Part shown: piece by piece, positions 3,118 through 18,236 of the stretch
Layout: each line of letters starts with the position of its first letter
Numbering within the stretch: the stretch's first letter is position 1
From: Candidatus Uhrbacteria bacterium
GTDB lineage: Bacteria; Patescibacteriota; Patescibacteriia; 2-12-FULL-60-25
Reading direction: 5' to 3'
DNA: 64,000 nucleotides
Assembly (NCBI GenBank): GCA_016203535.1
Contig: JACQMO010000019.1
Span: forward strand, 23,899 to 87,898
Made by a program: the position numbers and the translations under genes
Notes under the pieces: model-generated
What the model was told of the DNA's origin: nothing
Databases searched by the model: none
The model's input: only the letters and a program-made list of their open reading frames with translations

Positions 3118-3132
3118 GCGATTATTCTTTTT

Positions 3133-5670
<2,538 letters not shown>

Positions 5671-12366: not shown

Positions 12367-15828
<3,462 letters not shown>

Positions 15829-16191
15829 TCCCTCTTCCTCCCTCCCATCAGACCGTGGGAACGGACCGAACGGGCGGTTTCCCAGGCGATGACGAGACGG
15901 CTCCGGCAGCGGTCGGAGCGCAGAAGGAAGAGCGTGTGTGATTGATGGAAATCGAGGAGCGGCGACGCGGCCCTGTCTTCGGACAGGCGTCCGAGACACG
16001 AAAACCCACTATAACGAGATGCTAGTGGGTCTTCCTGCCTCCGGTATTTACTTGAGCATTTGGCCTAAATACTCGATTACGACGCGACGTTGTGGCCGGA
16101 TTTTGCCACGTTGCAAAAGCCCTGTCAAGAGCGAAAAACGGGGGAAGATTGGATGCCTGAAAACCAACATTCTGTCAAAATGGCTCAACAA

Positions 16192-16450: not shown

Positions 16451-16466
16451 CTTCGTTGCCCCGACA

Positions 16467-16502
16467 GACGTGGAGGAGGAACCCGCGGCGCCCCGAACAC
16501 GG
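16467..16502 (+). other. Leader motif copy A: GACGTGGAGGAG-N14-CCGAACACGG
   Basis: Same composite motif with identical 14-nt spacing at 17002-17037. Confidence 0.65.
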
Positions 16503-16651
16503 ATCGCGTCGCGGACAGCTCGCTGAAATCATCGCCCCCGGTTCGTACTGGGGACGCATGATCGGTAGGCGGCTATGGAACTGACAATGCCTCGGCATCC
16601 GTCAGCTCCCCTCTACATCCGTCGTGGCAACCAATGACGAAGGAGGGATTC

Positions 16652-16861
16652 GTGCGGAAGGAAGCGACTAGGCAGGAAGACATCCGAGGCAATGTGCGCA
16701 GCGTCATCCTGATGACGCCGGAGGAGATCGAGCGGCTGGGGTACGCGTCCTACTCGGACATGCTCCCGCAGAACGACGATTCCGAGTGGCACCCGCAGAA
16801 GCGGCTCTGGGCGAAGTTGCCCTTCGGGCGACCGAACTCCCGGCTGCGCCGGCGGCGGTAG
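16652..16861 (+). CDS. Hypothetical protein, ~69 aa, GTG start (island ORF1)
   Basis: GAAGGAGGGATTC-GTG ribosome-binding context; VRSVILMTPEEIERLGYASYSDMLPQ. Confidence 0.6.
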   Translation: MRKEATRQEDIRGNVRSVILMTPEEIERLGYASYSDMLPQNDDSEWHPQKRLWAKLPFGRPNSRLRRRR

Positions 16862-16911: not shown

Positions 16912-17001
16912 GCAGATCCGAGATCATGATCCCGATCGTGATTTCAGAACTGAATCTTGGTTGTCCTTCGAAAAGCCGGGGGACTGGTGTTTATCCCGAG
17001 C

Positions 17002-17037
17002 GATGTGGAGGAGAGCTCACCTGCAGTCCGAACACGG
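17002..17037 (+). other. Leader motif copy B: GATGTGGAGGAG-N14-CCGAACACGG
   Basis: Matches copy A with identical spacing. Confidence 0.65.
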
Positions 17038-17175
17038 TCGCTGCACGTGAAAGGGGTCGGAGCCCATGGCGAGCCGGATTCGTCTGGCATGCCTTGATCG
17101 TACGACTTCGAGGACACGGGACGTCTAACGTCCTACGTCCCCTTCACATCGGTCGGGAGAACATTCCGTCCATTC

Positions 17176-17273
17176 GGCAACGCCAGCAGGCGAACTGGCA
17201 CCGCGCCCAAACGGCGACGGTGAAACCACTCCTGGAACACGGGAGAATGAGGGTTCGAATCCCTCCTTTGCCG
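17176..17273 (+). ncRNA. tRNA-like cloverleaf without a conventional anticodon loop, in the 5' leader of island ORF2
   Basis: Canonical T-arm GAGGG-TTCGAAT-CCCTC (17249-17265); acceptor GGCAACG/CTTTGCC with one mismatch; D-like arm GCCAG..CTGGC; long variable-like arm CTCCTG..CGGGAG; central arm has a 5-nt loop and U8/U33 are absent. Confidence 0.5.
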
Positions 17274-17308
17274 CCGATACAAACACCAACACGATCACGG
17301 AGGAAAGA

Positions 17309-17554
17309 ATGCAAATGCAACCGATCACCGACAATTCGTTCGCCGAGGCCGACCGCGTCCTCGACCAGATCATCGCCCAGCTCGACCGCGACCGCGAGCG
17401 GCAGGAGGAGGACGAATTCATGGCCAAGCTCGCCGCTCTCGAGGCCGAGAACGAGGTCTTCCTCGCCCGGCTCCACGCCGACGACGAGGACGACGGCCCG
17501 CCGACCCTGCGCTGCCCGCCGACCTGGCCCAACGAGTGCGCGATGGAGGTCTGA
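17309..17554 (+). CDS. Hypothetical acidic coiled-coil protein, 81 aa (island ORF2)
   Basis: GGAGGAAAGA-ATG; MQMQPITDNSFAEADRVLDQIIAQLDRDRERQEEDEF. Confidence 0.65.
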   Translation: MQMQPITDNSFAEADRVLDQIIAQLDRDRERQEEDEFMAKLAALEAENEVFLARLHADDEDDGPPTLRCPPTWPNECAMEV

Positions 17555-17580
17555 CCTCCCGCGCCTCGGCGCCTCACTCG

Positions 17581-17608
17581 CAGGAGTTCCGCTCCAACGG
17601 AACTCCTG
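17581..17608 (+). repeat. Hairpin after island ORF2
   Basis: CAGGAGTTCCG-CTCCAA-CGGAACTCCTG, 11-bp perfect arms, no U-tract. Confidence 0.8.
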
Positions 17609-17741
17609 CACGCTCACAGGTTCTGAAGCACAATTCGCTTGAGAACCTCTGTCGACTCATGACATACCCGACTCTCCCCGTTCAACCAAGCACCTCAACA
17701 CGGGCGATCGTCGGGTATTTCAATACAGTGGAAGAATCCGG

Positions 17742-17789: not shown

Positions 17790-17802
17790 CGTCGTCCGAA
17801 TC

Positions 17803-17814
17803 GACGTGGAGGAG
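17803..17814 (+). other. Leader motif copy C: GACGTGGAGGAG
   Basis: 12-nt match to copies A/B; downstream half not conserved. Confidence 0.45.
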
Positions 17815-18014
17815 AGCGGGTTCTCGAAGAGCGACCGCTCCGCTTCCGGACTCCGGCCATTCGGCTGGACTTCGCAAGACGGAGCGACACCCTTCGGGCC
17901 CGGCGGCTCGTCGGTTGGTGCATACCAGACGTCGAGCCTCGCCTCCAGATCGTTTCGGAAGAACCGAGACCGGCGCGCAAGCGCTTGCGGCACCTTCGAC
18001 ACGGTGAAACGAAC

Positions 18015-18236
18015 GTGAAACAGTTTTTCGCGGTTCTGGGAATCGTGTGCTTCATCATCGTCATTCTGAGCTACGGAAAGGAGGCCTACCTCGTCGCGGC
18101 GATTTCCGCCGTGCTGGCGTTCGGCTTCCTCTTCGCGAGCGAATACATCACCCGCCTGACCCCCAAACAGGCGGGGCTCGCGGCGGCAAACGAGGTCCTG
18201 GCACGAAAACGCCACGACCTACACACCCACCACTAG
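18015..18236 (+). CDS. Small two-TM membrane protein, GTG start (island ORF3)
   Basis: VKQFFAVLGIVCFIIVILSYGKEAYLVAAISAVLAFGFLFASEYI; stop 11 nt before ORF4. Confidence 0.6.
   Translation: MKQFFAVLGIVCFIIVILSYGKEAYLVAAISAVLAFGFLFASEYITRLTPKQAGLAAANEVLARKRHDLHTHH

Follow-up and report, generated by a model that had tools for sequence, protein, structure and literature searches.

The window analyzed here is a 64,000-nucleotide (nt) stretch of DNA from an assembly of Candidatus Uhrbacteria bacterium (811 kb in 30 contigs, ~60% GC, 88% complete), whose relatives have genomes of 0.7-1.6 Mb. Within the window, a stretch of orphan open reading frames (ORFs) separates rpoB from a rodZ-like gene. This interval carries two copies of a structured RNA, here referred to as R1, and a tRNA-like structure (TLS) that begins 20 nt past the second copy:

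12367..15840, minus strand: rpoB, the divergent neighbor (Pfam RNA_pol_Rpb2 domains)
16461..16625, plus strand: first R1 copy (118.8 bits with the R1 covariance model, as a copy from its training set)
16634..16861, plus strand: orphan ORF of 75 aa lying between the R1 copies
16996..17156, plus strand: second R1 copy, immediately 5' of the TLS, with long closing helix P1 CCGAGCGATGTGGAG/CTTCACATCGGTCGG (114 bits, also a training-set copy; covariation in P1)
17176..17276, plus strand: whole TLS, including discriminator G17273 and CCG at 17274-17276 (sequence, fold and positional counterparts)
17309..17554, plus strand: 81-aa orphan ORF, starting 36 nt past the TLS and preceded by a Shine-Dalgarno-like GGAGGAAAG (17299-17307)
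17797..17957, plus strand: possible third, divergent R1-like domain (22.9 bits), preceding an ORF for a small membrane protein (18015-18236); weak, because the opposite strand also scores 19.1 bits
21269-21994: HTH-domain gene that looks like rodZ (Pfam)

The 81-aa ORF, whose start at 17309 agrees with an earlier note on this DNA, produced only sub-threshold matches of the coiled-coil type in Pfam, and a search of the family yielded no convincing relative (best E value of 0.005, 32% over 63 aa). A match to Bifidobacterium was rejected as a 16-residue coincidence, and the antisense peptide GGIRTLI was dismissed as a spurious translation of the T-arm. Directly after the ORF, positions 17580-17612 form a 12-bp perfect hairpin (GCAGGAGTTCCG...CGGAACTCCTGC) without a T-run.

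A cloverleaf without an anticodon

The elements of the TLS, all on the plus strand, were assigned from the sequence and, for the central and variable arms, also from the predicted fold:

17176..17182: acceptor 5' strand, GGCAACG
17183..17198: D-like arm CCAGCAGGCGAACTGG, i.e., CCAG-CAGGCGAA-CTGG, without a U8/A9 linker; missing from the minimum free energy (MFE) fold
17199..17222: extended central arm at the anticodon position, CACCGCGCC-CAAAC-GGCGACGGTG
17229..17245: class-II-like variable hairpin CTCCTGGAACACGGGAG, i.e., CTCCTG-GAACA-CGGGAG
17249..17265: T-arm, GAGGG-TTCGAAT-CCCTC
17266..17272: acceptor 3' strand, CTTTGCC

The T-arm, the acceptor, the CAAAC hairpin and the variable arm are present letter for letter as the earlier note had described them, and direct reading of the sequence likewise bore out the missing U8 and U33 and the GCCG end. 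The acceptor pairs at six of seven positions, with a single C.U mismatch, and the central arm consists of 9 bp with a bulged A and closes on a 5-nt loop that offers no anticodon. The 3' end is encoded as G-CCG (17273-17276) rather than RCCA or NCCA, and the base at position -1 is a C. The element folds far more stably than shuffled sequences (z of -4.3 to -4.8; 0/200), and its MFE structure retains the T-arm, the variable arm, the central arm and five of the seven acceptor pairs. The letters of the proposed D-like arm are there, but the MFE fold re-pairs them, so that the D-arm as drawn is uncertain. Taken alone, the 6/7 acceptor match is weak, with a chance of ~9% estimated over ~70 positions. 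We accepted the TLS as real because of comparative evidence: a strict acceptor plus T-arm descriptor retrieved seven distinct elements in R1 loci versus 0.1 expected under a first-order Markov model.

A structured RNA beside rpoB

Comparison of the rpoB-upstream regions of 18 relatives revealed weak colinear matches with a recurring 3' motif, CCCCTYYACATCNGTCGG, which locates the 3' strand of a long helix that closes a four-way junction of ~140-190 nt. In the first alignment of this RNA, both bases have changed, with pairing retained, in 20 of the 27 predicted pairs. A covariance model, R1, was built and scanned over 41 family genomes, 34 of which proved to carry the RNA, usually as two tandem copies of ~165 nt divergent from rpoB; wherever its location was visible, R1 generally adjoined rpoB. 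Matches were also found in several other families of the class (loci L172-L197). The window and the loci of 12 relatives, most of them carrying R1, gave no relevant match in Rfam, whether at the gathering threshold or convincing below it, and R1 appears to be undescribed as far as our Rfam and literature searches show. The earlier note had overlooked this R1 context.

Locus L109 of one relative, G005, contains R1 in triplicate (minus-strand ruler 5443-3386): the copies are near-identical (83-90% identity) and a different small ORF follows each, which amounts to a local expansion of an RNA-ORF unit. In another relative, G003, which has no TLS, a hairpin resembling an intrinsic terminator comes after the second R1 domain. 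As this arrangement is clear in G003 only, an intrinsic terminator was rejected as the general 3' end of R1.

Counterparts of the TLS in other genomes

TLSs were found in nine family genomes, the window's own (G000) included, ~17-65 nt past an R1 domain. Further TLSs occur in a second family, in G047 and G093, ~400 and ~1200 nt downstream of R1, a separation that makes the link to the R1 3' end looser in that family. In all 11 cases the TLS lies on the R1 strand. The acceptors of the counterparts read as follows:

G005: GGCATCG/CGATGCC
G008: GGCGTCG/CGATGCC
G013: GGCAGCG/CGCTGCC
G018: CGCGTAC/GTACGCG
G021: CGCAGAA/TTCTGCG
G024: CGCAGTG/CTCTGCG
G025: GCCACCG/CGGTGGC
G030: GGCGGCG/CGTCGCC
G047 and G093: GGCTGGT/ACCAGCC

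The TLS sequences are mutually unrelated across genera, and that of the window is not conserved even within the family: a DNA search of the relatives returned only matches of its T-arm to tRNA-Ser genes and nothing for the remainder. A relaxed descriptor applied to 293 kb of other loci retrieved true tRNAs and six matches that we judged by eye to be due to chance, none of which has the canonical G53 and C61. The automated count for these other loci is not a false-positive rate, because the ARAGORN filter missed part of the true tRNAs. Two more candidates were doubtful and were left out of the counts, that of G016 for a 3-nt gap after the T-arm and that of G079 for want of an acceptor partner.

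The TLS is not obligatory to R1, since most of the R1-bearing family genomes examined have no recognizable one. This bears on the idea that R1 and the TLS constitute a single larger ornate noncoding RNA, with the TLS as one of its structural domains. tRNAs often occur near or within the GOLLD and ROOL ornate RNAs, which, like R1, are large structured bacterial RNAs, and the usual tandem arrangement of R1 with a TLS often within 17-65 nt would suit such an architecture. However, R1 domains are ~165-nt four-way junctions, chromosomal and beside rpoB, and show no Rfam match to those families; most R1 loci lack a TLS, complete genomes included, and may have a terminator or a different stable hairpin behind R1 instead. 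We consider this architecture very improbable.

The fold is maintained while the anticodon arm is not

The part common to the TLSs is a 7-bp acceptor stacked directly, without a gap, on a 5-bp T-stem. A purine occupies position 73 in 11/11, C74 is found in nine of the 11 and so is U at -1, and nine have the T-loop TTCRANY, the exceptions being G013 and G030, which lack a canonical T-loop. CCA is encoded in three of them, and U8/A9 is not retained across the set. At the anticodon position, arms are missing, extended or rearranged. In G008 the whole TLS spans only ~62 nt and has no arm there at all; the arm is extended in G000, G025, G047 and G093, with a 5-nt loop on a long stem in G025 as in the window; and G013, G021 and G024 have in common an arm of the form GCCC-UAYCCAU-GGGC, identical in the latter two (GCCC-UAUCCAU-GGGC). 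The anticodon position is thus dispensable.

Another possibility is that the TLS may be a cis-acting mimic in the leader. It would be bound by the ribosome, an aminoacyl-tRNA synthetase or some other protein that binds tRNA, and would control translation of the small ORF. In favor of this are the arm shared by G013, G021 and G024, the ORF start that follows the TLS in G005 and G021 as well, and the location of the window TLS 36 nt before an ORF with a good Shine-Dalgarno sequence. That sequence nevertheless lies outside the TLS, no identity element or anticodon is retained across the TLSs, and those of G047 and G093 are far from R1. Moreover, the window ORF is without convincing family relatives and the ORFs behind other TLSs look unrelated. 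We regard such control as unlikely.

Selection on the fold was assessed in two ways. In an alignment (A4) of the acceptor and T-arm columns of nine canonical TLSs, 96.3% of cells pair, 9/12 pairs change on both sides, and G53 and C61 are invariant; the covariation score of 0.85, compared with 0.19 for shuffled and at most 0.22 for slid alignments, is inflated because the elements had been picked by a descriptor that requires pairing. A comparison of congeners provides a less biased test, and the G030 element had been spotted by its position rather than by the descriptor. Over the acceptor, variable arm and T-arm (the D-arm was left out), four compensatory differences separate G013 from G030, plus one G-C to G-U change, and none of the 20 pairs is broken. 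The compensatory changes are A-U to G-C in the acceptor, C-G to U-A in the variable arm, and U-A to A-U and G-C to A-U in the T-arm. As these changes are compensatory and the T-loop is not tRNA-like, it is the fold that has been kept and not a copied tRNA sequence. In the other family, G047 and G093 have the same acceptor and largely the same T-arm but a rewritten central arm, and the variable arm has gained length in helical form.

Collectively, these data indicate that the window TLS is a genuine non-decoding tRNA-like structure selected for its fold, with RNA processing as its most likely job, a reading to which we assign a probability of roughly 55%.

Comparison with known RNA classes

The window TLS was not called by ARAGORN, even with relaxed and intron settings, and scored 18.0 bits against the Rfam tRNA model (RF00005), below the gathering threshold of 29. 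It has the 7-bp acceptor (6/7 paired), the 5-bp T-stem (5/5) and the T-loop motif TTCRANY (TTCGAAT) of this family, and in place of a decodable 7-nt anticodon loop with U33 it has the 5-nt CAAAC on an extended stem. We therefore rejected an ordinary tRNA, with or without an intron, in agreement with the earlier note, which had stated that this is not a normal tRNA. The long variable arm recalls class-II tRNAs (Ser/Leu), and the T-arm is identical to the T-arms of tRNA-Ser in relatives; unlike these, the TLS lacks an anticodon loop, U8, U33 and an encoded CCA.

The earlier note had also allowed for a degenerate tRNA. tRNA-Ser(GCT) was not found in the 88%-complete assembly, and a decayed version of this gene was considered and rejected, since its arms and position do not fit and the counterparts show independent structures. 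More generally, a decayed tRNA gene or a tRNA-derived attachment scar in a hypervariable island would suit the nearby orphan ORFs, would have company in the tRNA-like duplicates and introns found elsewhere in the genome, and would agree with close relatives matching only the tRNA-Ser-like T-arm. Yet in independent genera, structural counterparts of unrelated sequence occupy the same site next to R1, their stems are intact but different, and congeners change in a compensatory manner. Apart from its T-arm, the TLS has no close match elsewhere in the genome, nor does it closely match the tRNAs compared, which represent a minority of tRNA sequences. Decay is thereby largely refuted and we hold it to be quite improbable; the window TLS is neither an ordinary nor a decayed tRNA.

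Other loci of the genome hold tRNA-like sequences of different kinds. A full-length copy of tRNA-Asp (G000:C29:31492-31567, L054) and a copy of the 3' half of tRNA-Pro (G000:C30:~3126-3165, L053) lie beside their parents, and in place of the anticodon arm both have a 5-bp stem capped by an identical palindromic loop of 8 nt, ATGGCCAT. Two tRNA 3' halves (G000:C2:1-125, L051, and G000:C12:~5100-5420, L052) follow sequence resembling a group I intron end (GCCGTAGAGACTAGATACCAGAACGCC...GAAGATATAGTCC), which suggests intron-bearing tRNAs missed by ARAGORN. A chimeric tRNA-Ile(GAT) (G000:C18:19792-19865, L062), with a 5' part as in the normal gene and a 3' part like the T-arm and acceptor of tRNA-Gly, sits at a contig end and is possibly an assembly artifact.

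A tmRNA was rejected as well. It shares with the TLS a tRNA-like domain without an anticodon, but the window TLS spans ~98 nt with its own 5' strand, has no tag frame, and does not show the tRNA domain split around a tag-coding region that characterizes RF00023; an ordinary tmRNA is present at another locus (G000:C28:16030-16427).

The top Rfam match of the window TLS was mascRNA-menRNA (RF01684), with 25.8 bits and an E value of 0.006. Because this score is below the gathering threshold of 42.5, we propose that the TLS works like mascRNA and do not call it one. The likeness extends to the position directly 3' of a structured noncoding RNA, as R1 ends at 17156 and the TLS starts at 17176. mascRNA and menRNA, from MALAT1 and MEN beta, similarly combine a tRNA-like acceptor and T-arm with a reduced D-arm. 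Both are short of linker residues, and at the anticodon position they carry a lengthened stem that ends in a compact loop (PMC11693755). RNase P and RNase Z cleave these human RNAs and thereby mature the host RNA (PMC11693755). They are mammalian and no homology is implied, whereas the bacterial TLS, a putative processing substrate, precedes an ORF.

Proposed processing by RNase P

For bacterial RNase P, the 12-bp acceptor/T stack serves as a ruler, and the GGU of its L15 loop pairs with R73-C74-C75 of the substrate (PMC11143913, PMC12710915). The features kept in the TLSs are the feature set read by this enzyme, and sequence correlates of RNase P and RNase Z cutting recur among them (U-1 in 9/11, R73 in 11/11, C74 in 9/11). 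The RNase P RNA of this genome is of type A and contains GGTAAACC in what, by our reading of its sequence, is an L15-like position. We propose that R1, the TLS and the small ORF are carried on one transcript, in which the 12-bp stack, the purine-C-rich 3' end and usually U-1 would recruit RNase P. A predicted cut at 17175/17176 would set the 3' end of the upstream R1, and RNase Z or the exonucleases of tRNA 3' maturation would act near 17273 and release the downstream mRNA, the Shine-Dalgarno sequence of which (17299-17307) would then lie just beyond the 3' border of the TLS. The TLS would most likely be a bacterial functional counterpart of the MALAT1/mascRNA arrangement. In the window, the C at -1, the C.U mismatch in the acceptor and GCCG in place of RCCA speak against processing; the absence of a TLS from most R1 loci, together with the terminator-like hairpin of G003, suits an exchangeable 3'-end device. 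Of the options raised in the earlier note, that of a mimic or a signal for processing in the ORF leader is the one that holds, now with counterparts that recur behind R1.

The cut would also liberate a small RNA, which may have a role of its own. Whether the TLS RNA is itself the product, a small stable and perhaps CCA-tailed tRNA-like RNA with a non-decoding role, was therefore considered. mascRNA is itself such a released small RNA (PMC11693755), and the encoded CCA of three TLSs and the purine 73 of all would agree with this. A trans-acting partner, however, usually preserves some sequence, and little is conserved between genera; several TLSs have no CCA and one has no arm at the anticodon position. 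We consider this role improbable, less likely than control of translation in cis and more likely than a decayed tRNA.

Implications

RNase P substrates other than tRNAs are already known as a kind in bacteria, among them pre-4.5S RNA, pre-tmRNA, phage C4 antisense RNA and intergenic mRNA sites (PMC11143913). They resemble the present case as non-tRNA or tRNA-like RNAs inside longer transcripts, although cutting of the TLS is a proposal. They are RNAs of other kinds, whereas the TLS is a full cloverleaf behind a separate structured domain and recurs within a bacterial class; the literature searched contained no bacterial case of a full cloverleaf that recurs behind a conserved structured RNA. 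Tentatively, and with somewhat less than even odds, we suggest a new bacterial gene arrangement, in which R1 is an unlisted four-way-junction RNA, mostly duplicated in tandem, that stays beside rpoB throughout a class of tiny-genome bacteria and whose 3' end is sometimes defined, via RNase P, by a fast-evolving TLS without an anticodon, so that maturation of the MALAT1/mascRNA type would have evolved independently in bacteria.

Mammalian MALAT1 and NEAT1 are the best-known cases in which a tRNA-like element steers the tRNA-processing machinery to a noncoding RNA; a 2025 paper calls them the only long noncoding RNAs to mature in this way (PMC12941219). The finding points to a conserved RNA beside rpoB in small-genome bacteria, unmatched by Rfam in the searches made. 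If the proposal is true, the TLSs, in which the anticodon arm has been altered or lost in many lineages while the RNase P ruler has been kept, would constitute a natural mutational experiment on the requirements of RNase P.
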